A stretch of 39,507 nucleotides of DNA from Longimicrobium sp. (GTDB lineage Bacteria; Gemmatimonadota; Gemmatimonadetes; Longimicrobiales; Longimicrobiaceae). The stretch spans positions 1 through 39,507 of the forward strand of contig DASVWD010000103.1 of assembly GCA_036389795.1 (NCBI GenBank), in the 5' to 3' direction. The notes below the pieces were generated by a model. It saw only the letters and a program-made list of their open reading frames with translations. It was not told where the DNA came from and made no database searches. The translations under genes were made by a program, and so were the position numbers. Below, piece by piece: positions 5,384 to 36,009 of the stretch. How positions within the stretch are numbered: the stretch's first letter is position 1; each line of letters opens with the position of its first letter.

Positions 5384-5401
5384 GCGGCCGGAACCGGCCG
5401 C
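5384..5401. terminator. Small intergenic palindrome between the two SRPBCC genes
   Basis: GCGGCCGG at 5384-5391 and CCGGCCGC at 5394-5401 form a near-perfect palindrome in the 67-base gap. There is no T-run, so it may attenuate rather than end transcription, or stabilise the upstream message. Confidence 0.3.
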
Positions 5402-5442
5402 GCACCCCCGCCCTCGCGAACGACGGAACAGGAAGGATCGAG

Positions 5443-9678: not shown

Positions 9679-9703
9679 GTCCGGCGGAGAGATCGCCCGC
9701 GCG

Positions 9704-9730
9704 TGTCGATTTCGCCGAGCCTCGTTCGAC
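9704..9730 (+). promoter_or_regulatory. Predicted ECF42-type promoter, YciI gene 2
   Basis: TGTCGA (9704-9709), 17 bases (TTTCGCCGAGCCTCGTT), then CGAC (9727-9730), followed by GCCGTGGTAGAGCC. It lies in the 113-base gap between YciI genes 1 and 2. Confidence 0.75.
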
Positions 9731-9791
9731 GCCGTGGTAGAGCCGGGGTTCACGCCGAGCCCGGCCGGGACCCGGAACCGGAGCCAGGACG

Positions 9792-10223: not shown

Positions 10224-10227
10224 CCGC

Positions 10228-10254
10228 CGTCGATTCCGCCGCCCCTCGCCCGAC
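10228..10254 (+). promoter_or_regulatory. Predicted ECF42-type promoter (one mismatch), YciI gene 3
   Basis: CGTCGA (10228-10233) differs from TGTCGA at one base. After 17 bases (TTCCGCCGCCCCTCGCC) comes CGAC (10251-10254), then GTACGAGTGGAGCC. It may be weaker than the others. Confidence 0.6.
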
Positions 10255-10312
10255 GTACGAGTGGAGCCCGCGTCCGGCCGGCTCCCGACCCTGACCCGAT
10301 GGAGACACGACC

Positions 10313-10708
10313 ATGCGATTCCTGTCGATCTACAAGGCCGCGGAGGCAAGCGCTCCCCCCACGCCCGAGGAGATGGCGCGGATGAACGCGCTCGTCGAGG
10401 AGATGACGAGCCGGGGCGTGCTGCTGGCCACCGAGGGGTGCCTGCCGAGCGCGCTCGGGGCGCGCGTCCGGCGCTCCGGCGAGCAGGTGTCGGTGACCGA
10501 CGGGCCCTTCACCGAATCGAAGGAGCTGGTGGCCGGCTTCGCGATCCTGGAGGCGGCCTCGAAGGAGGAGGCGGTCGAGCTGACCCGGCGCTTCCTGGAC
10601 GTGGCCGGCGACGGCGAGTGCGAGATCCGCCAGCTCTTCGGGCCGGCCGACTTCGGCGGGTGCGCCGGGGTGGAGCACGCCGGCGCCGAGCTGGCCGCGC
10701 AGGCGTAG
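10313..10708 (+). CDS. YciI/DGPF-domain protein 3
   Basis: The 131-residue protein starts MRFLSIYKAAEASAPPTPEE and has SVTDGPFTESKELVAGFAIL, the DGPF signature, then EIRQLFGPADFG. It is more divergent than proteins 1 and 2: the N-terminal strand lacks the charged VKA/RRA block, and the C-terminal tail is alanine-rich. GGAGACACGACC gives a ribosome binding site before the ATG. It belongs to the tandem array expected to be driven by the locus sigma factor. Confidence 0.88.
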   Translation: MRFLSIYKAAEASAPPTPEEMARMNALVEEMTSRGVLLATEGCLPSALGARVRRSGEQVSVTDGPFTESKELVAGFAILEAASKEEAVELTRRFLDVAGDGECEIRQLFGPADFGGCAGVEHAGAELAAQA

Positions 10709-10780
10709 CCCGGGCCCGCCTGGGGGCTTGCGCGGGCGTGCGGGCCGCCGTTACCAGAGGACGGGCGACGAGGCACCGGG

Positions 10781-10802
10781 CCGCCGGACTTCCTTCCGGC
10801 GG
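10781..10802 (+). terminator. Hairpin before YciI gene 4
   Basis: CCGCCGGA (10781-10788) pairs with TCCGGCGG (10795-10802) around a 6-base loop. No TGTCGA box was found in the 141-base gap, so gene 4 may depend on read-through past this hairpin or on an unrecognised promoter. Confidence 0.4.
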
Positions 10803-10849
10803 TCCGGCGTTTCGGCACGCCGAACCCGAACCAGGCGGAGAGTGGGACG

Positions 10850-11206
10850 ATGCGGTACATGATCATGTTCAAGGCCGACCGGGACACGGAAGACGCCGCT
10901 CCGGCGTGCATGGTGCTCCCGGAGATGCAGCGGTTCATCGGCGAGCTGCGGCGGGACGGCGTGCTGGTCGCCACCGAGGGGCTCAAGCCGAGCCACACGG
11001 GGGCGGCCCGCGTCCGCTTCTCCGGCGGCAGGGTGTCCGTCGTGGACGGGCCCTTCACCGAGGCCAAGGAGCTCGTCGCCGGCTTCGTGCTGGTCGAGGT
11101 GCCGTCGAAGGAAGACGCCGTGGCGCTGGCCGGGCGCTTCCTCCGCATCGCGGGCGACGGCACCGCCTCGGAGGTGCGCGAGGTGTTCGACGCGCCGCCG
11201 CACTGA
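10850..11206 (+). CDS. YciI/DGPF-domain protein 4
   Basis: The 118-residue protein is the shortest of the four. It has MRYMIMFKADRDTEDAAPAC, ELRRDGVLVATEGLKPSH, the DGPF block SVVDGPFTEAKELVAGFVLV, and EVREVFDAPPH at the end. GCGGAG lies 9 bases before the ATG. Unlike the other three it lacks an obvious ECF42-type promoter. Biochemical function is unknown; the family is sometimes treated as a small-molecule binding or degradative fold. Confidence 0.88.
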   Translation: MRYMIMFKADRDTEDAAPACMVLPEMQRFIGELRRDGVLVATEGLKPSHTGAARVRFSGGRVSVVDGPFTEAKELVAGFVLVEVPSKEDAVALAGRFLRIAGDGTASEVREVFDAPPH

Positions 11207-11230
11207 CCCGAATCGCAAGGTCGGGAGGCG

Positions 11231-11257
11231 TGTCGATTTCGCCGCCTCCCGTTCGAC
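11231..11257 (+). promoter_or_regulatory. Predicted ECF42-type promoter for VOC-trmO-VOC-sigma operon
   Basis: TGTCGA (11231-11236), 17 bases (TTTCGCCGCCTCCCGTT), then CGAC (11254-11257), followed by GTCGTGATGGAGAC. It is the last such site before the sigma gene. The intergenic gaps of the five genes from VOC 1 to the sigma gene are 74, 9, 43 and 4 bases, so read-through would give self-activation. Confidence 0.75.
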
Positions 11258-11336
11258 GTCGTGATGGAGACGCGGTCCCCCGCCCGGCCGGGAATCGACC
11301 GAGACCCGGCCTCGACCCCAGCAGAAGGAGCGCGCC

Positions 11337-11747
11337 ATGCAGATCAACCCGTACCTCGTCTTCAACGGGCAGTGCGCCGAGGCATTCCGCTTCTACGAGC
11401 GGGTGCTCGGTGGCAGGATCGAGTTCATGCAGACCTTCGGCGAATCGCCGATGGGGAGCGAGACGCCGCCCGAGTGGAAGGACTGGGTCATGCACGTCAG
11501 CCTCGACGTGGACGGCCAGAAGCTGTTCGGCTCCGACAGCCCGCCCGAGCACTTCGAGAAGCCGGCGGGCACGTCCGTTTCGATCAACGTCGAGCGGGCG
11601 TCGGAGGGGGAGCGCATCTTCAACGCCCTGGCCGAAGGCGGGCAGGTGAGGATGCCGTTCGAGAAGACCTTCTGGGCCGCCGGCTTCGGCATGTGCGTCG
11701 ACCGGTTCGGCACCCCGTGGATGGTCAACTGCGAGAAGGGCGACTGA
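11337..11747 (+). CDS. VOC-family protein 1 (PhnB-like)
   Basis: The 136-residue protein is a glyoxalase/dioxygenase-superfamily (VOC) protein of the PhnB type: PYLVFNGQCAEAFRFYERVLGG at the start, then IEFMQTFGESP and a C-terminal GFGMCVDRFGTPWMVNCEKGD. PhnB-like proteins often lack a known reaction, and metal ligands cannot be assigned here by eye. GAAGGAG lies 8 bases before the ATG. It is the first of three close paralogues and the first gene after the 11231 promoter. Confidence 0.88.
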   Translation: MQINPYLVFNGQCAEAFRFYERVLGGRIEFMQTFGESPMGSETPPEWKDWVMHVSLDVDGQKLFGSDSPPEHFEKPAGTSVSINVERASEGERIFNALAEGGQVRMPFEKTFWAAGFGMCVDRFGTPWMVNCEKGD

Positions 11748-11821
11748 GCCTTTCGTCCGGGTCCGCGGCCGCGGGCGGCGCGGCGCGGGCCCGGCCCCAA
11801 CCCCGGCGGAAGGAGCGCGGC

Positions 11822-12232
11822 ATGCGGATCGACACGTACCTCTTCTTCGACGGCCGGTGCGCCGAGGCGTTCCGCTTCTACGAGCGCGTGCTGGGCGGCA
11901 GGATCGACTTCATGCAGACGGCCGGCGAGTCGCCGGTGCGGGACCAGACCCCGCCCGAGCAGCACGACTCCATCCTCCACGTCCACCTGAGCGTGGGCGA
12001 CTTCGTGCTGATGGGCTCCGACGCGCCGCCCCCGCACTTCGAGAAGCCGCAGGGGTTCTCGGTGTCGATCAGCGTCGAGGAGCCGGGCGAGGCGGAGCGG
12101 ATCTTCCGCGAGCTGTCGGAAGGCGGGCAGGTGCGGATGCCGATGGAGAAGACCTTCTGGGCCGCCCGCTTCGGCATGTGCGTCGACCGGTTCGGCACGC
12201 CGTGGATGGTCGGCTGCGACAAGGGCGACTGA
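11822..12232 (+). CDS. VOC-family protein 2 (PhnB-like)
   Basis: The 136-residue paralogue of VOC 1 shares AEAFRFYERVLGGRIDFMQT, EKTFWAARFGMC and FGTPWMVGCDKGD. GGAAGGAG before the ATG at 11822 fixes the start. The middle (HFEKPQGFSVSISVEEPGEA) differs most between the copies, suggesting changed ligand preference. The 74-base gap after VOC 1 contains only GC-rich sequence with no TGTCGA box, so transcription probably continues from 11231. Confidence 0.88.
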   Translation: MRIDTYLFFDGRCAEAFRFYERVLGGRIDFMQTAGESPVRDQTPPEQHDSILHVHLSVGDFVLMGSDAPPPHFEKPQGFSVSISVEEPGEAERIFRELSEGGQVRMPMEKTFWAARFGMCVDRFGTPWMVGCDKGD

Positions 12233-12241
12233 GCCGACCCC

Positions 12242-12661
12242 ATGACGGCGGACGTGTTCACGCTCACTCCCATCGGCCGCGTCAGCTCGCCGCTCACGGA
12301 CCCCGCGCGGGCGCCGAAGCAGGGGAACGAGGGGGCGCCCGAGGCGTGGCTCGTCTTCGAGCCCGGGTTCGAGGAAGGCTTGAGGGACCTGCGGGCGGGC
12401 GAGGAGGTCCTGGTGCTGACCTGGCTGGACCGCGCCGACCGCGGCGTGCTGCGCGTGCACCCGCGCGACGACGAGAGCGCCCCGCTGCGCGGCGTGTTCA
12501 GCACCCGCTCGGCGGACCGGCCCAACCCCGTGGGGATCCACCGCGTCCGGATCGCCGCGGCCGAGAGCCCCACCCGCTTCCGGGTGGCGGACATGGAAGC
12601 GATCGACGGGACGCCGGTCGTCGACGTCAAGCCGGTCCTCGACCCCGCGCGGGAGCGGTAG
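12242..12661 (+). CDS. TrmO-like tRNA t6A37 N6-methyltransferase (UPF0066/YaeB fold)
   Basis: The 139-residue protein shows the TrmO/TsaA pattern: TPIGRVSSPLTDPARAPKQG at the start, GVFSTRSADRPNPVGIHRVR in the core, and EAIDGTPVVDVKPVLDPA at the end. In E. coli TrmO adds a methyl group from SAM to t6A at position 37 of some tRNAs, but many short homologues are untested. It starts 9 bases after VOC 2. Its presence among VOC and YciI genes is odd, so it may have another substrate here. Confidence 0.82.
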   Translation: MTADVFTLTPIGRVSSPLTDPARAPKQGNEGAPEAWLVFEPGFEEGLRDLRAGEEVLVLTWLDRADRGVLRVHPRDDESAPLRGVFSTRSADRPNPVGIHRVRIAAAESPTRFRVADMEAIDGTPVVDVKPVLDPARER

Positions 12662-12704
12662 ACCGGCCGCGCTCCACCTCACCACCCACGGCAGGGGGTG
12701 CACC

Positions 12705-13115
12705 ATGCAGATCGTCCCGTACCTCAGCTTCGACGGCCGGTGCGCCGAGGCGTTCCGCTTCTACGAGCGGGTGCTCGGCGGGAAGATCGAGTTCATGCAG
12801 AGCTACGGCGACTCGCCGATGCGGGACCAGGCGCCGCCCGGCTGGCAGGACCGGGTCATGCACGCCACCCTCTCCGTGGCCAGCCACACCCTGATGGGCG
12901 CCGACAACCCGCCCGAGCACTACCGGAAGCCGCAGGGCACGTCCCTGGCGATCAACCTCGCCGACGCGGCCGAGGCCGAGCGCATCTTCGCCGCGCTGGC
13001 GGAAGGCGGGGAGGTGGCGATGCCGCTGCAGAAGACCTTCTGGGCCGGCCGCTTCGGCATGCTCACCGACCGGTTCGGCACTCCGTGGCTCGTCAACTGC
13101 GAGCAGGGCGACTGA
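12705..13115 (+). CDS. VOC-family protein 3 (PhnB-like)
   Basis: The 136-residue third copy has PYLSFDGRCAEAFRFYERVL, GKIEFMQSYGDSP and GRFGMLTDRFGTPWLVNCEQ. It differs from copies 1 and 2 in having GMLTD where they have GMCVD. GCAGGGGG lies before the ATG. It ends 4 bases before the sigma factor, so the two are translated from one message. Substrate unknown. Confidence 0.88.
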   Translation: MQIVPYLSFDGRCAEAFRFYERVLGGKIEFMQSYGDSPMRDQAPPGWQDRVMHATLSVASHTLMGADNPPEHYRKPQGTSLAINLADAAEAERIFAALAEGGEVAMPLQKTFWAGRFGMLTDRFGTPWLVNCEQGD

Positions 13116-13119
13116 TCCC

Positions 13120-14427
13120 GTGCCTCCTTTCACGGCCGTGAGCGCCGCGGAGACCCACCGCGCCATCGACGCGGTCTGGCGGATCGAGTCGGCCCGGCTG
13201 ATCGCGGGGCTGGCGCGGATGACGGGCGGCGACGTGGGGCTGGCCGAGGACCTGGCGCAGGACGCGCTGGTGGCCGCGCTGCAGCGGTGGCCGGAGACCG
13301 GCGTCCCCGACAACCCGGGAGCCTGGCTGATGGCCGCCGCAAAGCGCCGCGCCATCGACACCTTCCGCCGCGGCAAGCTGCTCGAGCGCAAGCACGCGGA
13401 GCTCGGCCACGAGCTGGAGTCGCGGCAGGAGGCGGCCGTCGCCGAGCTCGACGAGGCGCTCGACGACCCCGTGGGCGACGACCTGCTGCGGCTGATCTTC
13501 ACCTGCTGCCACCCGGTGCTCTCCACCGAGGCGCGGGTGGCGCTCACGCTGCGCCTGCTGGGCGGGCTCACGACCGAGGAGATCGCGCGCGCCTTCCTGG
13601 TCCCCACGCCCACCGTGGCGCAGCGGATCGTCCGCGCCAAGCGCACGCTGGCCGAGGCGCGCGTCCCCTTCGAGGTCCCCCGCGGCGCGGAGCTGGCCGA
13701 GCGCCTGTCGTCGGTGCTGGGGGTGGTCTACCTGGTCTTCAACGAGGGCTACTCGGCCACCGCGGGCGACGACTGGGTGCGCCCCGCGCTCTGCGAGGAC
13801 GCGCTGCGCCTGGGCCGCATCCTGGCCGAGCTGGCGCCGCGGGAGCCCGAGGTGCACGGCCTGGTGGCGCTGATGGAGATCCAGGCGTCGCGCCTGCGGG
13901 CGCGGGTGGGCCCCTCGGGCGAGCCGGTGCTGCTGCTGGACCAGGACCGCGGGCGCTGGGACCAGCTCCTCATCCGCCGCGGCCTGGCGGCGCTGGCGCG
14001 GGCCGAGGCGCTGGGCGGCGCGCGGGGCCCGTACGCGCTGCAGGCGGCCATCGCCGCCTGCCACGCGCGGGCGCGCACGGCCGGGGAGACGGACTGGGCG
14101 CGCATCGCGGCGCTCTACGACGCGCTCTCGCAGCTGGCGCCCTCGCCCGTGGTGGAGCTGAACCGCGCGGTGGCGCTGGCGATGGCGTTCGGCCCGGCGG
14201 CGGGGCTGGAGCTGGTGGACCAGCTGGCGGACGAGCCGTCGCTCCGGAGCTACCACCTGCTCCCCAGCGTGCGCGGCGACCTGCTGGCCAAGCTCGGCCG
14301 CCTGGACGAGGCGCGGGCGGAGTTCGAGCGCGCGGCCGGGCTCACCCAGAACGCGCGCGAGCGGCGGCTGCTCGAAGACCGCGCGGCCGCCTGCGCGCGC
14401 CTCTCCGCGCCCCCGCCGGTGCCGTGA
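13120..14427 (+). CDS. ECF42-type RNA polymerase sigma factor with long C-terminal extension
   Basis: The 435-residue protein begins with an ECF sigma-2 region (GLAEDLAQDALVAALQRWPE, then NPGAWLMAAAKRRAIDTFRR). Sigma-4 follows with LLRLIFTCCHPVLSTEARVA, LTLRLLGGLTTEEIARAFLV and AQRIVRAKRTL. Residues about 190-430 are an all-helical, TPR-like extension (VVYLVFNEGYSAT, then RAVALAMAFGPAAGLELVDQL). This architecture marks group ECF42, where the extension replaces an anti-sigma factor and is required for activity. Neighbouring DGPF genes are the group's usual targets. The start at 13120 was kept because it gives coupling to VOC 3; an ATG is absent nearby, so GTG is used. Confidence 0.9.
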   Translation: MPPFTAVSAAETHRAIDAVWRIESARLIAGLARMTGGDVGLAEDLAQDALVAALQRWPETGVPDNPGAWLMAAAKRRAIDTFRRGKLLERKHAELGHELESRQEAAVAELDEALDDPVGDDLLRLIFTCCHPVLSTEARVALTLRLLGGLTTEEIARAFLVPTPTVAQRIVRAKRTLAEARVPFEVPRGAELAERLSSVLGVVYLVFNEGYSATAGDDWVRPALCEDALRLGRILAELAPREPEVHGLVALMEIQASRLRARVGPSGEPVLLLDQDRGRWDQLLIRRGLAALARAEALGGARGPYALQAAIAACHARARTAGETDWARIAALYDALSQLAPSPVVELNRAVALAMAFGPAAGLELVDQLADEPSLRSYHLLPSVRGDLLAKLGRLDEARAEFERAAGLTQNARERRLLEDRAAACARLSAPPPVP

Positions 14428-25401: not shown

Positions 25402-25995
25402 ATGATCGCCGGGATCGTGCTCGCCGCGGGGCGCTCGCGCCGGATGGGCGAGCCCAAGGCGTTCCTGCGGCTGGAGGGCCGGAGCTTCCTGGAGCGCACC
25501 CTGGCGGCCCTGCACCACGGCGGCTGCGGCGAGCTGGTGGTGGTCACCGGCCCGCGCGAAGACGACGTGGCCCGCCGCATCGCCGAGGCCGCGCTCGCGC
25601 TGGGCGCCCGCGTGGTGGTGAACCCCGCGCCCGACTCGGAGCAGGCCGACTCGCTGCGCCTGGGCCTGCGCGCGCTGCCGGACGACGCGGAGGCCGCCGT
25701 GGTGGCCCCGGTGGACGTGCCCGAGATCGAGGCCGCGCTGGTGCTGGCGCTGGTGGAGGCGTTCCGGCGCACCGCCGCGCCCGTCGCCCTCCCCTCGCAC
25801 GGGGGGCGGCACGGGCACCCGGTGCTCTTCGCGCGCGGCGTGTGGCCCGAGCTGCTGGAGGGGCCGCTCCCCCAGGGCGCGCGCACGGTGATCCACGCGC
25901 ACGCGCACGACCTGGCCGAGGTGCCCGTCCCCCGGCTGGCGGCCGACGTGGACACGCCGGAAGACTTCCGCCGCTTGGCGGAGGGCGCGCGGTGA
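25402..25995 (+). CDS. MocA-like molybdenum cofactor nucleotidyltransferase
   Basis: The 197-residue protein has the MobA/MocA fold: MIAGIVLAAGRSRRMGEPKA, then FLRLEGRSFLERTL, VVVTGPREDDV, VVAPVDVPEIEA and a C-terminal AADVDTPEDFRRL. LAAGxSxRMGxPK is the nucleotide-binding P-loop-like motif. MocA transfers CMP (or GMP in MobA) to Moco; adjacency to XdhC favours cytidylylation for the xanthine dehydrogenase group. It overlaps xdhC by GTGA. No molybdenum hydroxylase structural gene is in the window. Confidence 0.85.
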   Translation: MIAGIVLAAGRSRRMGEPKAFLRLEGRSFLERTLAALHHGGCGELVVVTGPREDDVARRIAEAALALGARVVVNPAPDSEQADSLRLGLRALPDDAEAAVVAPVDVPEIEAALVLALVEAFRRTAAPVALPSHGGRHGHPVLFARGVWPELLEGPLPQGARTVIHAHAHDLAEVPVPRLAADVDTPEDFRRLAEGAR

Positions 25996-26885
25996 CCGAG
26001 CCCGGCCCGGCCCCGCTCCCGGCGGCCGAGGCGGTGCACCACGCCCGCGCGGCGCTGGAGGGCGGCCCGCCGGTGGCCATCGTCACCGTGATCGACGCGC
26101 GCGGGCACGGCGCCCCTCCCCCGGGCGCGCACCTGGCCGCGTGGGCGGACCGGCACGCGGGGACGCTGGGGAGCGCCGCGCTCGACGAGCGGGCGCTCGC
26201 CGCCGCGCGCGAGGCGCTGGCCTCGGGGAGGGCGGGCTCGCGCGACCTCGAGGCCGGCGGCGCCGCCTGCACCGTCTACGTGGAGCCGCACCGGGCGCCG
26301 CCCTCGCTGGTGATCGTGGGCGCGGGGCACATCGCCCGGCCGCTCTGCCGGGTGGGGGCGCTGCTGGGCTTCCGGGTCACGGTGCTCGACGACCGCCCCG
26401 AGTTCGCCACCCGCGAGCGCTTCCCCGAGGCCGCCGAGGTGCGCCGGGCCGACTTCTCCGACCCGCTGCGGGGGATCGACACCGACGGCGCCTGGCTGGT
26501 GCTGGTGACGCGCGGGCACAAGTACGACTTCGAGGTGCTGCGCGACGTGCTGCGCCGGCCCGCTTCCCCGGCGTACGTGGGGATGGTGGGGAGCCGCCGC
26601 CGCACCCGCGCGGCGCTGGAGCAGCTCGCCCGCGAGGGCGTCGAGGCGGAGCGGCTCCGCGCCGTCTACGCCCCCGTGGGGCTGGACGTCCGCGCCGAGA
26701 CGCCGGAGGAGATCGCCGTCTCCATCGCCGCCGAGCTGGTGCGGGTGCGCCGCGGCGGCACCGGCCAGTCGCTGCGCGACCGCGAGCGCGTGGCCGAGCG
26801 CTGGGTCACCCGCGAGCGGCCCGCGTCCGCCGGGGGGGAAGCGCCTCCGCGCGGTGAGCGACACCCCGGGGGCGGCGATCCGTAG
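25992..26885 (+). CDS. XdhC-family protein with a degenerate N-terminal CoxI part
   Basis: The 297-residue protein starts at a GTG overlapping the mocA stop. Its C-terminal Rossmann domain has VIVGAGHIARPLCRVGALLG, VTVLDDRPEFATRERFPEA, YVGMVGSRRR and PVGLDVRAETPEEIAVSIAAEL, typical of XdhC. The N-terminal XdhC/CoxI-like half lacks GSTPR, having GHGAPPPGAH in its place, and lacks the GTVGGGC-type loop (GTLGSAALD). XdhC holds and sulfurates Moco for insertion into xanthine dehydrogenase-type enzymes. The normal CoxI domain is encoded separately at 32777, after five unrelated genes. Confidence 0.85.
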   Translation: MTEPGPAPLPAAEAVHHARAALEGGPPVAIVTVIDARGHGAPPPGAHLAAWADRHAGTLGSAALDERALAAAREALASGRAGSRDLEAGGAACTVYVEPHRAPPSLVIVGAGHIARPLCRVGALLGFRVTVLDDRPEFATRERFPEAAEVRRADFSDPLRGIDTDGAWLVLVTRGHKYDFEVLRDVLRRPASPAYVGMVGSRRRTRAALEQLAREGVEAERLRAVYAPVGLDVRAETPEEIAVSIAAELVRVRRGGTGQSLRDRERVAERWVTRERPASAGGEAPPRGERHPGGGDP

Positions 26886-26936: not shown

Positions 26937-27977
26937 ATGTACCGCACCTGCATCTACTGCTCCGCCGACCTGGGGAGCAACGACGCGCTGGAGCCCTTCC
27001 CCGTGGGGCGGAGCATCGCCTTCGACGGGTGGAAGGGGCGGCTCTGGGCCGTCTGCCCGAAGTGCGCGCGCTGGAACCTGGCGCCCCTCGAGGAGCGCTG
27101 GGAGGTGGTGGAGGCCGCCGAGCGGCTCTTCGCCGACGCGCGGCTGCGCGTGCAGTCCGAGAACGTGGGGCTCGCCAGGCTGCGCGACGGCACCCGGCTG
27201 ATCCGCGTGGGGCGGGCCCTTCCCGGCGAGCTGGCGGCCTGGCGCTACGGCGACCAGCTGGTGAAACGCCGCCGGCACTACCTGCTGGTGGCCGGCGCGG
27301 CGGCCGCGGCGGGGATCGCCGTGGTGGGCGGGGCCGTGGCGCTCACCGCCAGCGCGGGGATGGTGTCGGCGTTCAACGGCGTCTTCCAGCTGTGGAACCA
27401 GCGCCGGCAGCGGAAGGTGATCTACGGCATCCCGCGCGAGGAGTCGCCCACCGGGCAGCCGCTGGTGCTGCGCCGCTGGCAGGCGGGCGCGGCGGTGCTC
27501 GGCGAGGGCCCGGGCGGCGGGATCTCGCTGGTGGTGCCCGACGCCTCGCGCAGGAACCCGAAGACCGACGGGTGGGGGCGCCCGAAGTTCACCGGCGACC
27601 CCGTGGTGCTCCCCGACCGCCACGCGCGCGCCTTCCTGGGGCGCGCCATGGTGCACCTGAACGCCGCCGGCGCCTCGCGGCGGCGGCTGGAGGGGGCGGT
27701 GGGGCTCCTCTCCGAAGCCGGCAGCGCCGAGGACTTCGTGCGCCGCGCCGCCGCCGAGGGGCGCACCCTGGGGAAGCGCCACGACCTCCCCGGCCGGCAG
27801 CTGCGCCCCGAGGGGTCGCTGGCGCTGGAGATGGCCCTGCACGAGGAGCAGGAGCGGCGCGCGCTGGAGGGCGAGCTGTCGCTGCTCGAGGCCGCCTGGC
27901 GCGAGGCCGAGGAGATCGCGGCCATCGCCGACCGGCTGGCGGGCGAGGTGCCGGCGCGGCCGGGGCGGGAGGGCTGA
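26937..27977 (+). CDS. Zinc-ribbon membrane paralogue A (unrecognised family)
   Basis: I do not recognise this 346-residue family. It begins MYRTCIYCSADLGSNDALEP and has C5-x-x-C8 and C40-x-x-C43, with RLWAVCPKCARWNLAP: a likely zinc ribbon. A basic run (KRRRH) precedes a hydrophobic segment at about 115-153 that could be a membrane hairpin. Then come EESPTGQPLVLRR (a strand-like SPTG motif) and RAFLGRAMVHLNAAGAS. Residues 295-337 are a highly charged helix, LALEMALHEEQERRALEGEL and the sequence leading to IADRLAGE. It is the first of five tandem copies; the next starts 4 bases after the stop. Confidence 0.8.
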   Translation: MYRTCIYCSADLGSNDALEPFPVGRSIAFDGWKGRLWAVCPKCARWNLAPLEERWEVVEAAERLFADARLRVQSENVGLARLRDGTRLIRVGRALPGELAAWRYGDQLVKRRRHYLLVAGAAAAAGIAVVGGAVALTASAGMVSAFNGVFQLWNQRRQRKVIYGIPREESPTGQPLVLRRWQAGAAVLGEGPGGGISLVVPDASRRNPKTDGWGRPKFTGDPVVLPDRHARAFLGRAMVHLNAAGASRRRLEGAVGLLSEAGSAEDFVRRAAAEGRTLGKRHDLPGRQLRPEGSLALEMALHEEQERRALEGELSLLEAAWREAEEIAAIADRLAGEVPARPGREG

Positions 27978-27981
27978 GCCG

Positions 27982-29121
27982 ATGTACCGGCACTGCATCT
28001 TCTGCTCGGCCGGCCTGGGCGCCAACGAGGCGGTCGAGGAGTTCCCGGTGGGCCGCACGCTCGCCTTCGACGCCGGGAAGGGGCGGCTGTGGGCCGTCTG
28101 CACCCGCTGCGGCCGCTGGAACCTGGCGCCGATCGAGGAGCGCTGGGAGGCGGTGGAGCGGCTGGAGCGCCTCTTCGCCGACGCGCGCCTGAAGGCGCAG
28201 TCCGAGAACGTGGGGCTGGCCAGGCTCGGCGACGGGACGCGGGCCGTGCGCATCGGCCGGGCGCCGGGGCGCGAGGTGGCGGCGTGGCGCTACGGCCGGC
28301 AGCTCGCGCGGCGCCACCGCGCCTGGCTGGTGGGAACGGCGGGCGCGGTGGCGCTCGGGGCCGGCCTGGCGGCGCTCAGCCTGGCGTTCCTGGCGGTCGG
28401 CGGCACGGCGGCGTTCCTGCTGGGGCTGGACGCGGCCGAGAGCGTGCGGCGGCGCCGGGTGGTGCACCACTTCGGCCCCGCCGACTCGCCCACGGGCGCG
28501 GTGTTCACCCTGCGCCGCGGCGACCTGGGCGGGGCACGTCTCGGCACCCAGGGCGGCGAGCTGGCGCTGCAGCTGCCGCAGGCGCCGCTGGCCGGGGTGG
28601 GCCCGGACCGCCCGCTGGTGCTCACCGGCCGCACCGCGCGCACCGTGCTGGCGCGGTCGATGGCGGCGGTGAACGGCCGCGGGGCGAAGCAGGACGGGAT
28701 CGACGCCGCCCTCGGCGTGCTCGCGCCCGGCGGCGCGGAAGAGTACGTGCGGCGCTCGGCCGAGGAGGGGCGCGCGCTGGGCGTGCGGATGGGGCCCCGG
28801 GGGGCGTACTGGTTCGCCGGCGTGCGCGGCGTGGCGCGGCAGGCGGGCTACCACCTCTGGCGCGACCTCGCCGGCCGCACCCGGCGCGGCGTGGACCCCG
28901 ACGCCCCGCCCGACCCCTTCGGCCCGCCGCCGGAGGGGAGCCTGCAGGGGCCCGAGGCGCTGGCGCTGGAGATGGCGCTGCACGAGGAGCAGGAGCGCCG
29001 GGCGCTGGAGGGCGAGCTGTCGCTGCTGGAGGCCGCCTGGCGCGAGGCCGAGGAGATCGCCGCCATCGCCGACCGGCTGGCGGGCGAGGCGCCGGCGCGA
29101 CCGGGGCTCACGGGCGGTTGA
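27982..29121 (+). CDS. Zinc-ribbon membrane paralogue B (unrecognised family)
   Basis: The 379-residue protein has the same plan as A: MYRHCIFCSAGLGANEAVEE, CxxC at 5/8 and 40/43, FADARLKAQSENVGLARLGDGT, a basic run, and a long hydrophobic stretch at about 114-150 (LVGTAGAVALGAGLAALSLA onward). ADSPTGAVFTLRRGDL follows at 168, then RTVLARSMAAVNGRGAK. The C-terminal module spans residues 327-369 and is almost the same as in A at DNA level. A region rich in Pro/Gly/Trp (ARQAGYHLWRDLAGRTRRG) precedes it, absent from A. GGGAGGG lies before the ATG. Confidence 0.8.
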   Translation: MYRHCIFCSAGLGANEAVEEFPVGRTLAFDAGKGRLWAVCTRCGRWNLAPIEERWEAVERLERLFADARLKAQSENVGLARLGDGTRAVRIGRAPGREVAAWRYGRQLARRHRAWLVGTAGAVALGAGLAALSLAFLAVGGTAAFLLGLDAAESVRRRRVVHHFGPADSPTGAVFTLRRGDLGGARLGTQGGELALQLPQAPLAGVGPDRPLVLTGRTARTVLARSMAAVNGRGAKQDGIDAALGVLAPGGAEEYVRRSAEEGRALGVRMGPRGAYWFAGVRGVARQAGYHLWRDLAGRTRRGVDPDAPPDPFGPPPEGSLQGPEALALEMALHEEQERRALEGELSLLEAAWREAEEIAAIADRLAGEAPARPGLTGG

Positions 29122-29128
29122 GGCGCCG

Positions 29129-30178
29129 GTGTACCGGCACTGCATCTTCTGCTCGGCCGGCCTGGGCGCCAACGAGGTGGTCGAGGAGTTCCCGGTGGGC
29201 CGCACGCTCGCCTTCGACGGGGCGAGGGGGCGGCTCTGGGCGGTGTGCCCCCGCTGCGCCCGCTGGAACCTGGCCCCCATCGAGGAGCGCTGGGAAGCGG
29301 TGGAGGCGGCGGAGCGGCTCTTCTCCCGCGCCGCCCTGCGCGCGCAGGGCGGGAGCCTGGGGCTGGCGAAGCTGCCGGACGGGACGAAGCTGGTGCGCGT
29401 GGGATGGGCGCCCCCCGCCGAGGTGGCGGCGCACCGCTACGGCGCGGCGTTCGACCGCCGCCGGCGACGCTATCTCACCTTCGTGGGCGGGGTGACCGCG
29501 GTGCAGATCCTCCCCCTGGGCGTCGTGGCGACCGTGGCGGGGATCTCCGCCCTCGCCGCCCTGCTGGGCCACGGCTGGAGGGGAAGCGTGCTGCACCGCG
29601 TGCCGTCCGGGCGGTCTCCGACGGGGCGCGCGCTCCGGGTGCAGACGTGGGACCTGGCCGGCGTGCGCGCGGCGAGCCAGGGCGACGGCACCTTCCGCCT
29701 GGAGCTGCCGCACGCGACGGCGCGCGGCGTGAGTCCCGCGGCACCGCTGGTCCTCGAGGGCGAGGACGCCGGGCGCCTGCTGCAGCGGGTGATGGTGCTG
29801 GTCAACGCCCGCGGCGCGAAGCCGGACGAGGTGGCGCAGGCGCTGGAGCGGGTGGACCGCGCGGGCGGGACGTCGGAGCACGTCCGTGGCTTCCGCGGGG
29901 GGCTTTCGGTGCGGCTCTTCCCGCCGCGCGAGGAGTTCGGGATCACCCCTCCTTGGCACCCGCTGCCGTACCGGGACCGCGCCGCGGGACCGCTGGTCAC
30001 GCCGCCCGAGGCGCTGGCGCTGGAGATCGCGCTGCACGAGGAGCAGGAGCGCCGGGCGCTCGAGGGCGAGCTGACGCTGCTGGAGGCGGCCTGGCGCGAG
30101 GCCGAGGAGGTCGCCGGGATCGCCGACCGGCTGGCGGCGCAGGTGCGCGCCGTCCACCTGCCCCGCCCCGGGGGGTGA
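29129..30178 (+). CDS. Zinc-ribbon membrane paralogue C (unrecognised family)
   Basis: The 349-residue protein starts with GTG at 29129, 7 bases after the stop of B; the alignment of MYRHCIFCSAGLGANEVVEE to the other copies fixes this start. All four Cys are kept (5, 8, 40, 43). It is the most divergent in the first helical part (SRAALRAQGGSLGLAKLPDG). The hydrophobic region is at about 115-148 (FVGGVTAVQILPLGVVATVA). SPTGRALRVQTWDL and RLLQRVMVLVNARGAKPDEV follow. Residues from 296 form the common C-terminal helix. It is the last of the closely spaced A-B-C group. Confidence 0.8.
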   Translation: MYRHCIFCSAGLGANEVVEEFPVGRTLAFDGARGRLWAVCPRCARWNLAPIEERWEAVEAAERLFSRAALRAQGGSLGLAKLPDGTKLVRVGWAPPAEVAAHRYGAAFDRRRRRYLTFVGGVTAVQILPLGVVATVAGISALAALLGHGWRGSVLHRVPSGRSPTGRALRVQTWDLAGVRAASQGDGTFRLELPHATARGVSPAAPLVLEGEDAGRLLQRVMVLVNARGAKPDEVAQALERVDRAGGTSEHVRGFRGGLSVRLFPPREEFGITPPWHPLPYRDRAAGPLVTPPEALALEIALHEEQERRALEGELTLLEAAWREAEEVAGIADRLAAQVRAVHLPRPGG

Positions 30179-30288
30179 GGCCGGATCCGGGTCGCTCGTC
30201 CGCCCGCCCGGACCGGCAGGATCGGCGGCAGCCGCGCGTTCCACGGGAGCCAACGGAACCTGCGGCCACGCCCTCCCGCGAAGGAGCG

Positions 30289-31488
30289 ATGTACCGGCAC
30301 TGCATCTACTGCTCGGCGTACCTGGGGACGAACGAGGCGCTGGAGGGCTTCCCGGTGGGGAGGAGCGTGGCGTTCGACGCCGCCCGCGGGCGGCTGTGGG
30401 CGGTGTGCGGACGGTGCGCGCGCTGGAACCTGGCGCCGCTCGAGGAGCGCTGGGAGGCGGTGGAGGCGGCCGAGCGCACCTTCCGTGACACGCGCCTCCG
30501 GGTGCAGCGCGAGAACATCGGCATCGCCCGGCTGCGGGACGGCACGCGGCTGGTGAGGATCGGCGAGGCGCTCCCCGGCGAGGTGGCGGCGTGGCGCTAC
30601 GGGGGCGAGCTGTCGCGGCGGCGCCGGCGCCACCTGGCGCGCGGGCACGTCTCGGGCGCGAGCGCCATGGTGGCGGCCGGGGTGGTGTTCGCCGTGGTGG
30701 GCCCCGTGGGCGGGCTGGTGACGGCCGCCGCGGCGTACGGCCTGGCGGAGGCCGCGTACCGCGGGGTGGAGCGCGGGGTGGAGCGCCTCCTGGAGGTGCG
30801 GGCCGAGCGCACGCCGGTGCACCGCCTGGACCCGCACGAGTCGCCCAGCGGCGAGCCGATGGTGATGCGCCGGGCGCACCTGCGCGGGGCGTACCTGGCG
30901 GGCGACGACGACACCGGCGAGCTGGTGCTGCGCGTCCCCGCCCTGGCGCCGGAGCCGTACGACTGGCTGGCACCTCTGGAGCCCGAGCCGGTGCCGGCCC
31001 CCTTCACCGTGCGCGGGTGGCGCGCCCGCTCGCTCCTGGCGCGGGCGATGGTGGGGGTGAACGCGGGCGGGGCCACGCCCAGGGTGGTGGAGCACGCGCT
31101 GGCCGAGCTGCACCGCTCGGGGTCGCCGGAGCGCTACCTGGCGCGCCTGGCCGAGCAGCACGCCACGCTGGAGCTGCCGCGGGGCGCCGAGTCGCCCCGC
31201 GGCGGCTGGGACCTGTACTGGACGCGCCGGGCCGACATGGAGGGCGTCCCCCAAAGCGAGCGCGACGAGTGGCGGGCGCGGGTGGGCGCGGGGATCGCGG
31301 GCGAGCGCCACGGCGGGCTGGTGCGCGGGCTGGCGCTCGAGGTGGCGCTGCACGAAGAGGAGGAGCGCCGCGCGCTGGAGGGCGAGCTGACCCTGCTGGA
31401 GGCCGCCTGGCGCGAGGCCGAGGAGCTGGCCGCCATCGCCGACCGGCTGGCGGGTGAGGCGCGGGCGCGGCCCGGCGCGCCGGGCTGA
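30289..31488 (+). CDS. Zinc-ribbon membrane paralogue D (unrecognised family)
   Basis: The 399-residue protein is the longest copy. MYRHCIYCSAYLGTNEALEG begins the zinc ribbon (Cys 5, 8, 40, 43). A hydrophobic segment lies at about 122-155 (SAMVAAGVVFAVVGPVGGLV), with a Pro-Gly turn in its middle as for a hairpin. ESPSGEPMVMRRAHLRGAYL and RSLLARAMVGVNAGGATPRV follow, then an extra EPYDWLAPLEPEPVPAP loop and YWTRRADMEGVPQSERDEW. The C-terminal helix starts at 348. AAGGAGCG precedes the ATG. A 110-base gap upstream may hold a second promoter, though none was recognised. Confidence 0.8.
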   Translation: MYRHCIYCSAYLGTNEALEGFPVGRSVAFDAARGRLWAVCGRCARWNLAPLEERWEAVEAAERTFRDTRLRVQRENIGIARLRDGTRLVRIGEALPGEVAAWRYGGELSRRRRRHLARGHVSGASAMVAAGVVFAVVGPVGGLVTAAAAYGLAEAAYRGVERGVERLLEVRAERTPVHRLDPHESPSGEPMVMRRAHLRGAYLAGDDDTGELVLRVPALAPEPYDWLAPLEPEPVPAPFTVRGWRARSLLARAMVGVNAGGATPRVVEHALAELHRSGSPERYLARLAEQHATLELPRGAESPRGGWDLYWTRRADMEGVPQSERDEWRARVGAGIAGERHGGLVRGLALEVALHEEEERRALEGELTLLEAAWREAEELAAIADRLAGEARARPGAPG

Positions 31489-31525
31489 AGCGCCGCGGGC
31501 GCGAGTCTTCCATCGTGCGGGCTGC

Positions 31526-32650
31526 ATGTACCGGCACTGCATCTACTGCTCGGCGGACCTGGGCGCGAACGAGGCGCTGGAGGGCTTCCCCGTGGGCCGC
31601 ACGCTCGCCTTCGACGCGGCGAAGGGGCGGCTCTGGGCGGTGTGCCGGAAGTGCGCGCGCTGGAACCTGGCCCCCATCGAGGAGCGCTGGGAGGCGGTCG
31701 AGGGCGCGGAGCGGCTGTTCCGCGACACGCGCACGCGCGTGCACGCCGAGAACATCGGGGTCGCGAAGCTGAGGGACGGCACGCGGCTGGTGCGCATCGG
31801 CGAGGCGCTCCCCGGCGAGCTGGCGGTGTGGCGCTACGGCCGCGAGCTGGAGCGGCGCCGGTTCCGCGCGCAGGCCGCGGCGGGGATGCAGAAGACGGCG
31901 GTGGGGCTGGTGGTGGTGGGCTCGGCCTTCCTGGGCCCGTTCTCGTTCCTCTCCTCGCTCCTGCTCGGCGCGGCCCACGACGCGGCCCGGCGGCGGGCGG
32001 GCGACGAGCTGCTGCACGTGGTGCACGTGGTGCCGCCGCGCGAGTCGCCCTCCGGGCAGCCCCTGGCGCTGCGCAGCGGCGACCTGGACGGGGCGTACCT
32101 GTCGGGCGGGCCCGGGCCGGGAGAGGTCGCCCTGCACGTGCCGGTGGTGGTCGGCGCCGGGCTGGACGCCGTGGAGCTGCGGGGCGAAGACGCCTGGAAG
32201 GCGCTCTCCCGCGCCCTGGTGCGCATCAACGGGCGCGGCGCCTCGCGCGCGGAGCTCGACGGCGTGTTCCAGATGTTCGCCCGGCACGGGTCGCTGCAGG
32301 CGTTCCTGGCGCGGCAGGCCGAGTCCGGGGCGACGTTCGGGCGCGGCGACTCCATGCTCTACTGGCAGTGGCGGGCCCGGCGGGAGGGGATCCCCCCCGG
32401 GAAGTTCCTGGCCTGGCAGAAGGTGACCAGCTACGGCACCGAGGGCGCGCGCGGCCACGCCGTCCAGCTCGGCATCGAGATCGTGCTGCAGGAGGAGCGC
32501 GAGCGCCGCGCGCTGGAGGGCGAGCTGAAGCTCCTGGAGAGCGCCTGGCGCGAGGCCGAGGAGCTGGCCTCCATCGCCGACCGCCTGGCGGGGGAGACGC
32601 CGGAGGGGGCCGCCGGCCGCCGGCTGGTCCCGCGGCGCGACCCCGCGTGA
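31526..32650 (+). CDS. Zinc-ribbon membrane paralogue E (unrecognised family)
   Basis: The 374-residue protein begins MYRHCIYCSADLGANEALEG, with all four Cys kept. FRDTRTRVHAENIGVAKLRD follows, then a hydrophobic region at about 118-150 (TAVGLVVVGSAFLGPFSFLS) and ESPSGQPLALRSGDLDGAYL. KALSRALVRINGRGASRAEL aligns with the common AMV-x-N motif. DSMLYWQWRARREGIPPGKF resembles the YWTRRADMEGVP stretch in D, so D and E are closest. The C-terminal helix (from 315) reads QLGIEIVLQEERERRALEGE, the most changed of the five. The start was chosen by alignment; no good ribosome binding site precedes it. Confidence 0.8.
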   Translation: MYRHCIYCSADLGANEALEGFPVGRTLAFDAAKGRLWAVCRKCARWNLAPIEERWEAVEGAERLFRDTRTRVHAENIGVAKLRDGTRLVRIGEALPGELAVWRYGRELERRRFRAQAAAGMQKTAVGLVVVGSAFLGPFSFLSSLLLGAAHDAARRRAGDELLHVVHVVPPRESPSGQPLALRSGDLDGAYLSGGPGPGEVALHVPVVVGAGLDAVELRGEDAWKALSRALVRINGRGASRAELDGVFQMFARHGSLQAFLARQAESGATFGRGDSMLYWQWRARREGIPPGKFLAWQKVTSYGTEGARGHAVQLGIEIVLQEERERRALEGELKLLESAWREAEELASIADRLAGETPEGAAGRRLVPRRDPA

Positions 32651-32726: not shown

Positions 32727-32776
32727 AATACGGGGGCGGGGTGCAGAGTGCGGTGCGAGCGTCGACGGATGGAGAG

Positions 32777-33094
32777 ATGAACGAAGACCTGGCCGTGTTC
32801 GCGGCCGCGGAAGAAGCGGCGCGCGAGGGAAGGCCCGTGGTGCTGGCAACCATCGTGCGGTGCAGGGGGTCCACGCCGCGCGGGGTGGGGAGCAAGATGC
32901 TGGTGGACCCCGAGCGCGGGCTCACCGGCACCGTGGGCGGCGGCTGCGGCGAGGCGGAGGTGATCGAGGCCGCCCGCGAGGTGGCCGCCACCGGCGCCCC
33001 CCGGCTGCTGCGCATCGACCTCACCGAGGACCTGTTCAGCTGGAGCCCCGCCGTCTGCGGCGGGACCTTCGACGTGTTCCTGGAGCGGGTCTGA
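32777..33094 (+). CDS. Stand-alone XdhC/CoxI-domain protein
   Basis: The 105-residue protein is a complete XdhC/CoxI domain: VVLATIVRCRGSTPRGVGSK, then LTGTVGGGCGEAEVIEAARE and SPAVCGGTFDVFLERV. These GSTPR, GTVGGGC and CGG motifs are those missing from the N-terminus of XdhC at 25992, so the two may act together in Moco handling for a molybdenum hydroxylase. GGAGAG just before the ATG supports the start. The dehydrogenase follows 52 bases later. Confidence 0.85.
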   Translation: MNEDLAVFAAAEEAAREGRPVVLATIVRCRGSTPRGVGSKMLVDPERGLTGTVGGGCGEAEVIEAAREVAATGAPRLLRIDLTEDLFSWSPAVCGGTFDVFLERV

Positions 33095-33146: not shown

Positions 33147-34415
33147 ATGGAGACAGGCACCGCACCCGCCCGCGCCGAGGCCGCCTGGCGCCGGTACGCC
33201 GACTACCTCCGCCGGCCGCCGCTCCTAGTGGTGGAGTGGAACGACGCCGAGACCGGGGCGCGGGGGTGGCTGGTGATCAACTCGCTCCGGGGCGGGGCGG
33301 CCGGCGGGGGCACGCGCATGCGCGCCGGGCTCACCCGGCGCGAGGTGACGTACCTGGCCAAGACGATGGAGCTGAAGTTCTCCTTCAGCGGCCCTCCCAT
33401 CGGCGGCGCCAAGAGCGGAATCGACTTCGACCCGGCCGACCCGCGGAAGGACGGGGTGCTCAGGCGCTGGTTCCGCGCGATCTCTCCCTATCTGGGGCGG
33501 TGCTACGGCACCGGCGGCGACCTGAACGTCGACGAGGTGCGCGACGTGATCCCCTGCTGCGCCGAGATCGGCCTCTCCCACCCGCAGGAGGGCGTGGTCC
33601 GCGGGCACCTGCGCCCCGGCGGCGAGCGCCTGGCGCAGGTCCACGCCGCGCTGGACGGCGGGGTGCGCGCCGTGGTGGACCACCCGGAGTACGGCGTGCC
33701 GGGTGCGGGCCTCTCCGTGGCCGACCTGGTCACCGGCTACGGCCTGGCCCGCGCGGTGATCGCCTTCCACGAGGCGCGGGGGCGGAGCGTGGCCGGCCGG
33801 CGCGTGCTGCTGGAGGGCTTCGGCGCGGTGGGCGGGCCGTGCGCGCTGTACCTGGCCCGCGCGGGCGCTGCGATCGTCGGCATCGCCGACCGCGAGAAGA
33901 CGTTCGTGGTCCCCGCAGGCCTCGGCGCGGCGGAGACGGAGGCGCTGCTCGTGGCGCGCGGCGACGACAAGCTCCTCCCCGACGACCCGCGCTGCGACCG
34001 CGACGGCGACCGGAGGGCGTTCCACGCCGTGGCCGCCGACGTGTTCGTGGCGGCGGCGGCCTCGGAGACGCTCGACGAGGAGGCGCTCGGGCGGCTGCGG
34101 CGCCAGGGGGTGGAGATCATCGCCTGCGGCGCCAACCAGCCGTTCCGCGAGGCCGACCTGGGGCACACCCGCGTGCAGCGCGCGGCCGACCGGCGCTTCA
34201 GCGTGATCCCCGACGTGGTGGCCAACTGCGGGATGGCGCGCGCCTTCAGCTTCCTGATGGCCGAGGCGGAAAGCGCCGACCCCGCGCCCGTCTTCCGGGC
34301 GGTGGACCGCACCGTGACCGGCGCGCTGCTGGAGATCCTCTCCCGGGGCGGCGGCCGCCCCACGGGGCTCCTGGGCGCCGCCTTCGCCCACGCGCTGGAC
34401 CGGGTGGCGCCGTGA
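33147..34415 (+). CDS. Glu/Leu/Phe/Val dehydrogenase-family enzyme
   Basis: The 422-residue protein has the Glu/Leu/Phe/Val dehydrogenase plan: GGAAGGGTRMRAGLTRREV, K77 in MELKFSFSGPPIGGAK (K89 the other catalytic-type Lys), GTGGDLNVDEVRDV, and a nucleotide-binding GFGAVGG at 224-230. C-terminal IIACGANQPF and VIPDVVANCGMARAF are typical. It would oxidatively deaminate an amino acid or run in reverse with NAD(P)H in the cytosol. Substrate specificity (glutamate or branched-chain) cannot be decided. It follows the XdhC/CoxI gene by 52 bases with no clear promoter. Confidence 0.87.
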   Translation: METGTAPARAEAAWRRYADYLRRPPLLVVEWNDAETGARGWLVINSLRGGAAGGGTRMRAGLTRREVTYLAKTMELKFSFSGPPIGGAKSGIDFDPADPRKDGVLRRWFRAISPYLGRCYGTGGDLNVDEVRDVIPCCAEIGLSHPQEGVVRGHLRPGGERLAQVHAALDGGVRAVVDHPEYGVPGAGLSVADLVTGYGLARAVIAFHEARGRSVAGRRVLLEGFGAVGGPCALYLARAGAAIVGIADREKTFVVPAGLGAAETEALLVARGDDKLLPDDPRCDRDGDRRAFHAVAADVFVAAAASETLDEEALGRLRRQGVEIIACGANQPFREADLGHTRVQRAADRRFSVIPDVVANCGMARAFSFLMAEAESADPAPVFRAVDRTVTGALLEILSRGGGRPTGLLGAAFAHALDRVAP

Positions 34416-34979: not shown

Positions 34980-35432
34980 ATGCGCAACGCTTCGGCCGCG
35001 GCCCTGGCCGCGCTCGCCCTGCTGGCCGCCTGCGCCTCCGCGGGCGGCGGCGCTCCCGGCAGCCGCGGCGACGACCCCTTCCGCCCCTGCCCCGGCCAGG
35101 AGGCGGCGATGGCGGCCATCGCCGGCCGCGCGCCGAACCCCGACGGAAGGCGCATCCCGCCCGCGAGCTTCACGGTCACGACCACCACCACCGTGACGCC
35201 GGGCCAGGCTCAGCCCGCCCCGCAGCCTCCCTCCCTCGAGCTCGAGGTGGAGATGCAGGTCGACGCGGCGGGGCGGGTCACCGCCACGCGGCTGCGCCGG
35301 AGCAGCGGCCACTTCGACGTGGACCGGGCGATCACCGAGTCCGCGCGGCAGGCCCGGTTCGACCCCGCGACCGAGCACGCCTTCCCGATCCCCGGCTGCG
35401 CGATCTGGACGCTCCGGAGCCCGAGCCGGTAG
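34980..35432 (+). CDS. TonB-C-like lipoprotein 1
   Basis: The 150-residue protein opens MRNASAAALAALALLAACAS, with lipobox L-A-A-C (Cys18). DPFRPCPGQEAAMAAIAGRA follows, then a Thr-rich linker (TTTTTVTPGQ) and a TonB-C-like domain: VEMQVDAAGRVTATRLRRSS and DRAITESARQARFDPATEHAF. The C-terminal domain of TonB normally contacts outer-membrane receptors; here it lacks an energy-transducing membrane anchor, and the role is unknown. A paralogue of the same length follows. GGAGG lies 7 bases before the ATG. Confidence 0.8.
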   Translation: MRNASAAALAALALLAACASAGGGAPGSRGDDPFRPCPGQEAAMAAIAGRAPNPDGRRIPPASFTVTTTTTVTPGQAQPAPQPPSLELEVEMQVDAAGRVTATRLRRSSGHFDVDRAITESARQARFDPATEHAFPIPGCAIWTLRSPSR

Positions 35433-35556
35433 GCCGCGCGGGGCGGACGTCCGACCAGGTGCCGAAACACGGAAGCGCGTGAGTGCGCCGGCTCGCCCGG
35501 GGGCACCATGCTTGTCCATGCCCGCGCAGTCAGAGCCAATTTCCGGAGGGCTTCCC

Positions 35557-36009
35557 ATGCGCAACGCTTCGACCGGCATCCTGCTCGCGCTCGCCCTGCT
35601 GACCGGCTGTGCCTCGTCGCGCGGGGCGCGCGCCGCCGACTCCCGCCGCGGCGGCGGTGACCTGTTCCGCCCCTGCCCGGGCCAGGACGCGGCCATGGCC
35701 CGCATCGCCGGCCGGCCACGGGTGCCGCGCAAGGATCTCGGCCCCATCGAGATCCGGATCGCCAGGGAACTGCGTCCCGGCGAACGGCCACCGCGTTCCG
35801 CGCCGCGGCTCGACCTCCGGGCCGAGCTGGAGCTGCGGGTGAACGCGGAGGGGCGGGTGACGGAGGTGCACGTGCTGCGCAGCACCGGCAACTTCAACGT
35901 CGACGGCTCGATCACGAGCAGCGCCCGTAACCTGCGCTTCGACCCTGAGACCGAGTGGGCCTTCCCGGTCCCCGGCTGCGCCCTCTTCTCCTTCCACTTG
36001 CAGAGTTGA
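35557..36009 (+). CDS. TonB-C-like lipoprotein 2 (tandem paralogue)
   Basis: The 150-residue protein opens MRNASTGILLALALLTGCAS, with lipobox L-T-G-C (Cys18). DLFRPCPGQDAAMARIAGRP and the TonB-C-like core LELRVNAEGRVTEVHVLRST, then SSARNLRFDPETEWAFPVPG, align with lipoprotein 1. The 124-base upstream segment is also copied (GAAACACGGAAGCGCGTGAG occurs before both), so a whole promoter-gene unit was duplicated. The linker differs (RKDLGPIEIRIARELRPG, not Thr-rich). Role unknown. Confidence 0.8.
   Translation: MRNASTGILLALALLTGCASSRGARAADSRRGGGDLFRPCPGQDAAMARIAGRPRVPRKDLGPIEIRIARELRPGERPPRSAPRLDLRAELELRVNAEGRVTEVHVLRSTGNFNVDGSITSSARNLRFDPETEWAFPVPGCALFSFHLQS

Follow-up and report, generated by a model that had tools for sequence, protein, structure and literature searches.

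A lineage-expanded, unnamed zinc-ribbon family with a predicted membrane hairpin in Gemmatimonadota, seen in a five-gene array of Longimicrobium sp.

The DNA analysed here, referred to as the window, is a stretch of 39,507 nucleotides from Longimicrobium sp. (contig DASVWD010000103.1) in which five paralogous genes, A to E, follow one another on the forward strand. They belong to a real, widespread, lineage-expanded and undescribed protein family, some members of which carry a newly noticed second zinc ribbon; what has been established is a family and not a demonstrated system. The array comprises the following genes.

26937–27977, + strand: paralogue A, 346 residues, ATG start, the first copy downstream of XdhC
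27982–29121, + strand: paralogue B, 379 residues
29129–30178, + strand: paralogue C, 349 residues, GTG start
30289–31488, + strand: paralogue D, 399 residues
31526–32650, + strand: paralogue E, 374 residues

A first-pass annotation, made from the letters alone, had described five intact tandem reading frames of these lengths on one strand, and so they are. Frameshifts or decay were looked for within the window and none was found, so that decay of the array is ruled out, and the array recurs, undecayed, in relatives. The gaps between the genes are 4, 7, 110 and 37 bp and XdhC ends about 52 bp before A; an operon is therefore likely. Overall identity of B to E to A is 52–57%, and family E-values as low as 1e-169 mark the relatedness of the five as homology, not chance. 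The genome from which the window comes (G000; 7.5 Mb, 98% complete) holds two further divergent copies on another contig, C30.

The family is defined by C5xxC8-x31-C40xxC43, RWNLxP, WRYG, a hydrophobic stretch and a C-terminal ExxERRAxxGELxxLxxxW helix, a description that fits A to E, with HRYG in place of WRYG in C, and 120 relatives with a single zinc ribbon. In A, the parts lie as follows.

26937–27086, + strand: N-terminal zinc ribbon, residues 1–50, C5xxC8...C40xxC43; B to E start likewise
27279–27407, + strand: hydrophobic Gly/Ala-rich stretch, residues ~115–157, with positive flanks, read as a membrane hairpin
27417–27815, + strand: variable centre, residues 161–293, whose SPTG, a probable knuckle, aligns to the second-ribbon CxxCG of 17 relatives
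27816–27944, + strand: conserved C-terminal helix, residues 294–336, modelled as a single helix 291–336

The CxxC pairs at residues 5/8 and 40/43 occur in all of A to E and in all 137 full-length relatives, and the hydrophobic run at about 115–157 and the SP(T/S)G motif are likewise present in each of the five. Two other signatures that had been proposed hold in part. An A-M-V-x-N helix is literal in A and D, but reads SMAAVN in B, VMVLVN in C and ALVRIN in E, leaving only the Asn invariant; the ending IADRLAGE is as claimed except in C, which ends in IADRLAAQ. The earlier contrast between strongly conserved ends and unconserved centres is borne out by the 120 single-ribbon members, where mean modal-residue frequency is 0.75 over residues 1–108, 0.31 over 109–160, 0.32 over 161–293 and 0.79 over 294–336.

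The centre of A is 64–65% identical to that of its orthologues in G008 and G002, two genomes of the same genus in which the orthologue occupies the same first position at the locus, and only 26–39% identical to the centres of B to E; it therefore appears to be held per paralogue and not to drift freely. Judged by these identities, the centre persists between species in the only set of orthologues that could be traced with confidence, that of A. In the tree, paralogue E falls with D and with the second copies of both G002 and G008, but its centre is just 26–33% identical to the nearest of those second copies, so that clear orthology is confined to A.

The hydrophobic stretch has a median length of 34 residues; the 15 residues that precede it carry a mean net charge of +4.6, and those that follow carry +2.3. 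This length and these positive flanks agree with a hairpin whose two flanks are cytoplasmic. An AlphaFold2 model of A, built from a 32-row alignment (mean predicted local distance difference test score, pLDDT, 88.0; predicted template modelling score, pTM, 0.76), places strands at 26–30, 35–39 and 46–48, a helix at 55–67 and further strands at 70–91, followed by helices 96–134 and 140–158, a beta centre, helices 227–273 and the one helix 291–336. The model of a member with two ribbons, L053 (pLDDT 88.2, pTM 0.78), is of the same plan, so that single- and double-ribbon members alike are modelled with a ribbon, a helix pair, a beta centre and a long C-terminal helix.

The N-terminal ribbon is universal among the full-length members (137/137); a second, central CxxC...CxxC is found in 17 of them, with its two pairs 33–36 residues apart, and is missing from the other 120. 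In the alignment the first knuckle of this second ribbon, CxxCG, falls on the position of SP(T/S)G in the window proteins, which lack its cysteines and have a single intact ribbon each. The first-pass annotation had noted SP(T/S)G as a strand motif; the motif is there, and its alignment with the second zinc ribbon of relatives could not have been seen from the window. In a maximum-likelihood tree that retained the central columns, cysteines included, and whose root is unknown, one branch splits double- from single-ribbon members, with a value of 96 in the Shimodaira–Hasegawa-like approximate likelihood ratio test (SH-aLRT) and a single change as compared with 16 in shuffles. Taken together, the single branch and the alignment of CxxCG on SP(T/S)G indicate that SP(T/S)G is probably a ribbon knuckle from which the cysteines are missing. 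That the single-ribbon members lost the second ribbon is the simpler reading of the tree, but, the root being unknown, not the sole one. When the two ribbons of the double-ribbon members are compared by hhalign, their knuckles are matched to each other over 42 columns (P 3.8e-4, probability 36%, against P 0.14 in the control), which is suggestive, but only suggestive, of an origin by internal duplication. Two double-ribbon members lie on contig C30 of the window's own genome (L079:423-2477, minus strand), where a PAS-domain histidine kinase gene precedes them by 20 bp.

The first-pass annotation recognised no named family, and the database scans agree. Neither A to E nor diverse relatives had a match above threshold in Pfam, NCBIfam, PADLOC or PDB sequences, and Foldseek gave no match at E <= 0.001 for single- and double-ribbon models against PDB, or for one model against viral models. 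The best score in the VIA fold comparison (Z 5.2) covers the helix pair 102–160 only; the best PHROGs match (E 0.0012) is weak, involves one member and has no assigned function. Because the scans of Pfam, NCBIfam, PADLOC, PHROGs and PDB sequences gave weak matches only, assignment to a named family was dropped. A literature search found nothing relevant on this family.

The family has four nearest likenesses among known proteins. Double-ribbon members share with the double zinc ribbon families (PF12773 DZR, PF18912 DZR_2) the presence of two CxxC...CxxC ribbons, and L053 reaches 13.1 and 13.7 bits, short of the curated cut-offs of 27.3 and 27; DZR appears below cut-off in 9 of 19 double-ribbon rows and DZR_2 in 7 of 19, together with many other sub-threshold zinc-ribbon models from Pfam. 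These sub-threshold matches support zinc binding. The window's five proteins match neither family, and the build differs: here the membrane hairpin separates the ribbons and a long helix comes after them, and A to E keep one ribbon intact. In LITAF-type membrane zinc domains, where CxxC knuckles also adjoin a membrane-inserting hydrophobic stretch, the hydrophobic helix sits inside a single zinc site, whereas in the present family the hairpin lies between the ribbons, each of which is whole by itself. The top PDB sequence match, the TACC3 coiled coil (PDB 5lxn; E 0.33 to 1.6), is to the C-terminal helix and likely reflects only the composition of a long polar helix.

Lunapark, which is built from a membrane hairpin, a zinc ribbon and a coiled helix with its ends in the cytoplasm, resembles the family in build only, since its domain order differs. 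Its zinc ribbon, PF10058, is not among the 15 Pfam families matched by 32 members, nor among the 25 listed of the 44 Pfam families matched by double-ribbon rows. The likeness raises the idea that these are membrane-shaping proteins, working on the eukaryotic Lunapark principle with the hairpin as a wedge beside a cytoplasmic helix and zinc ribbon. A short Gly/Ala-rich hairpin that is positive on both flanks, the long conserved helix and the many copies per genome would suit such a function; paralogue-specific centres would not be predicted by it, and with no Lunapark ribbon among the Pfam families listed and a different domain order, we regard it as quite improbable.

A profile built from A to E finds matches in 80 of 99 listed genomes, with up to 18 per genome, and a broader profile finds them in 212 of 298 sampled Gemmatimonadota genomes and 89 of 119 genera; the latter search scored seven candidates per genome, so that its copy numbers are lower bounds. 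Where copies were counted they number 1 to 18. Among 85 genomes of at least 90% completeness from the first set, larger genomes hold more copies (Spearman rho 0.65, p 1e-11, a p-value made optimistic by the relatedness of the genomes): copies occur in none of the six genomes under 2.5 Mb and in all 42 of 4.0 Mb or more. Absence from the smallest genomes marks the family as accessory. A limited scan with two exact peptide patterns yielded 21 loci, of which all with a named taxon are from Gemmatimonadota, while two recorded as 'uncultured bacterium' cluster with Gemmatimonadota members in the tree; it found no relative outside the phylum, a result limited by the two patterns, which do not exclude relatives in other phyla. 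No relative was found in plasmids, phages or viral contigs, and a mobile or viral origin was rejected on that ground.

Copy number that tracks genome size is the behaviour of regulators, and the family might be a zinc- or redox-responsive membrane regulator whose ribbon cysteines sense metal or oxidation and whose helix relays the signal to a partner. The invariance of the first-ribbon cysteines (137/137) and the C30 pair behind its histidine kinase could be read in the same way. However, no DNA-binding or enzymatic output domain was found, most members lack the second ribbon, and a kinase is a neighbour at few loci. Structural zinc ribbons are, moreover, far commoner than sensing ones. A regulatory role thus seems rather unlikely.

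Gene neighbourhoods were examined as well. The array in the window is flanked by the following genes.

25402–25995, + strand: MobA-like nucleoside triphosphate (NTP) transferase (PF12804), conserved 5' neighbour
25992–26885, + strand: XdhC (PF02625 + PF13478), conserved 5' neighbour, ~52 bp before A
32741–33094, + strand: protein with only the XdhC/CoxI N-domain (PF02625), conserved 3' neighbour
33147–34415, + strand: Glu/Leu/Phe/Val dehydrogenase (PF00208/PF02812), 3' neighbour in part of the genus

In fetched loci, where genes were called by a simple GC-frame caller checked first on the window, the order MobA, XdhC, one to five copies, CoxI domain is conserved in the window's genus and in related genomes, and several of these have a Glu/Leu dehydrogenase, a DksA/TraR zinc finger and an acyltransferase beyond CoxI. 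The copies at this locus number one in G006 and G005, two in G002, G008 and G003, three in G001 and G009, and five in the window. Such synteny is what would be expected of a locus-specific factor for molybdenum-cofactor (Moco) enzymes. No Moco gene stands beside most members elsewhere, however, and the ends that all members share are not explicable by the window locus alone; a dedicated Moco role is accordingly a doubtful prospect for the family.

A different setting is found in one double-ribbon clade. Its 12 members come from two families (f4, f6) and one named record, and in all 12 the family gene has a ThiO-like flavin adenine dinucleotide (FAD) oxidase on one side and LipA on the other, and pyruvate dehydrogenase genes follow. 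One ThiO-like neighbour matches PF01266; LipA and the dehydrogenase subunits were recognised by eye from sequence, and two radical S-adenosylmethionine matches obtained when neighbours were scanned are consistent with LipA. In some Gemmatimonadaceae (f5) the order is methylmalonyl-CoA mutase (PF01642), one or more members, an FmdB-like gene and an ArgS-like gene; it is seen at L172:4321-13510, L173, L149 and L150, in several genera, and L172 has five family members in tandem. Over 71 arrays or singletons, a same-strand gene lies within 200 bp on the 5' side in 44 and on the 3' side in 38.

The fixed chromosomal place of the LipA clade (12/12) also bears on the idea of a polymorphic toxin, immunity or other conflict system, in which conserved ends would carry a variable payload. 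Conserved ends, a variable centre and tandem copies speak for it. Yet A keeps its centre from one species to the next, PADLOC gave no match, and no phage, plasmid or viral-contig relative was found, so that this explanation is very improbable.

The 3' ends of A and B are more alike than the rest of the genes. The codons of the C-terminal helix (27816–27944 in A; before 29121 in B) are 95% identical as DNA, compared with about 47–58% for the gene middles. Over these 129 nucleotides A differs from B at six positions and from its own orthologues at 14 and 19, whereas in the N-terminal region A is nearer to the orthologues than to B (Fisher p 0.006, 0.0002). This reversal suggests that recent local gene conversion keeps the helices of A and B alike.

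The first-pass annotation had proposed that A to E join through their shared ends into one hetero-oligomeric membrane complex. Tandem co-directional genes with small gaps, near-identical C-terminal helices and the suggested conversion between A and B would all be expected of subunits of one assembly. As stated, the proposal is unsupported. Copy number at the one locus ranges from one to five among genomes; at least 25 genomes in which nearly all candidates were scored have a single copy with ends just as conserved, so that an A–E assembly is not needed to explain the ends; and many paralogues in other genomes are dispersed rather than arrayed. We consider such a complex unlikely. The ends, equally conserved in single-copy genomes, must instead act in folding, in self-association or in binding a common partner that is present even where there are no paralogues.

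We tentatively favour another arrangement, possible rather than established, in which the family provides a membrane-anchored, cytoplasm-facing adaptor or scaffold, its ends forming a common base and its centre picking the client. The five genes are a local expansion of the family, which has no name and has to date been met in Gemmatimonadota alone. By sequence and AlphaFold2 model, each protein has a zinc ribbon, a short predicted membrane hairpin, a beta centre, which in 17 of 137 members is a second zinc ribbon and in the other 120 aligns with one, and a long C-terminal helix. Both ends, the first ribbon included, would lie in the cytoplasm and together make up the base, which may self-associate or dock onto a single partner common to all; the hairpin and the centre, distinct in each paralogue, would recognise that paralogue's own client. 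Speaking for this arrangement are the contrast of ends and centre over the 120 single-ribbon members, the retention of A's centre among its orthologues, the equal conservation of the ends where one copy is present, the length and flanking charge of the hydrophobic stretch, the common plan of the two models, the sub-threshold zinc-ribbon matches and the operon-like settings of the ThiO–LipA and MobA–XdhC–CoxI loci. Neighbourhoods suggest candidate clients: Moco-enzyme maturation at the window locus and lipoylated pyruvate dehydrogenase at the double-ribbon locus. A bolder version, which we think improbable, is that the family is a previously undescribed, phylum-wide platform for docking at the membrane, with an invariant cytoplasmic base of zinc ribbon and C-terminal helix and with exchangeable client modules. 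It would have originated as a double-ribbon factor serving lipoylated pyruvate dehydrogenase and have multiplied up to 18-fold, so as to bring a range of enzymes or their maturation factors to the membrane, at the window locus those of Moco enzymes.

Several observations weigh against the adaptor. Its partners and clients are conjectural, and no dedicated partner gene was found in the neighbourhoods examined; the earlier idea of an undescribed system thus stands as regards an undescribed family, but a system is not demonstrated. Other members stand beside genes of many kinds (methylmalonyl-CoA mutase, RecF-like, AsnRS-like, DnaJ, amidohydrolases, kinases), so neighbourhood may say little about clients. 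A minority of members have a hydrophobic stretch of 23–27 residues with little charge after it, which would also fit a single membrane pass with the C-terminus on the opposite side. The variable centre can also reflect weak constraint. The ratio of nonsynonymous to synonymous divergence (dN/dS) exceeds 1 between paralogues, but GC content at third codon positions (GC3), at 0.96–0.995, saturates synonymous sites, so that the ratio cannot count as diversifying selection. Positive selection in the centre, not being provable at such saturation, was set aside.

Whatever its function, an unnamed family with near-invariant ends, present in about 70% of sampled Gemmatimonadota at up to 18 copies, is a conspicuous gap in what has been annotated for this common soil phylum. 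New here are the second ribbon, the ThiO–LipA/pyruvate dehydrogenase placement, the placement of the array between MobA–XdhC and CoxI in the window's genus, the conservation of the ends in single-copy genomes and the tracking of genome size by copy number. The double-/single-ribbon split and the fixed place beside LipA and pyruvate dehydrogenase genes provide testable handles on function. Lineage-specific unnamed families are common, and the surprise is therefore moderate until a partner or activity is found.

Other genes came to attention nearby. Within the LipA and pyruvate dehydrogenase neighbourhood, a few genes upstream of ThiO, L152:3277-4239 and its equivalents in L153–L160 encode a conserved protein of ~320 residues (YREADFSRLKTV...RPNKV...) with no Pfam match. 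In the window, 34980–35432 and 35512–36009 are adjacent small lipoprotein-like paralogues, both with RPCPGQ(D/E)AAMA. Several look-alike small genes, among them two beginning MRF(M/V)I... and at least two copies of MQI.PYL.F.G.CAEAFRFYE..., lie at 9259–13115, before a sigma-factor-like gene at 13120–14427. At 4866–5934, two tandem look-alikes, SRPBCC/AHSA1-like by eye, lie behind an ArsR-like regulator (4532–4885).

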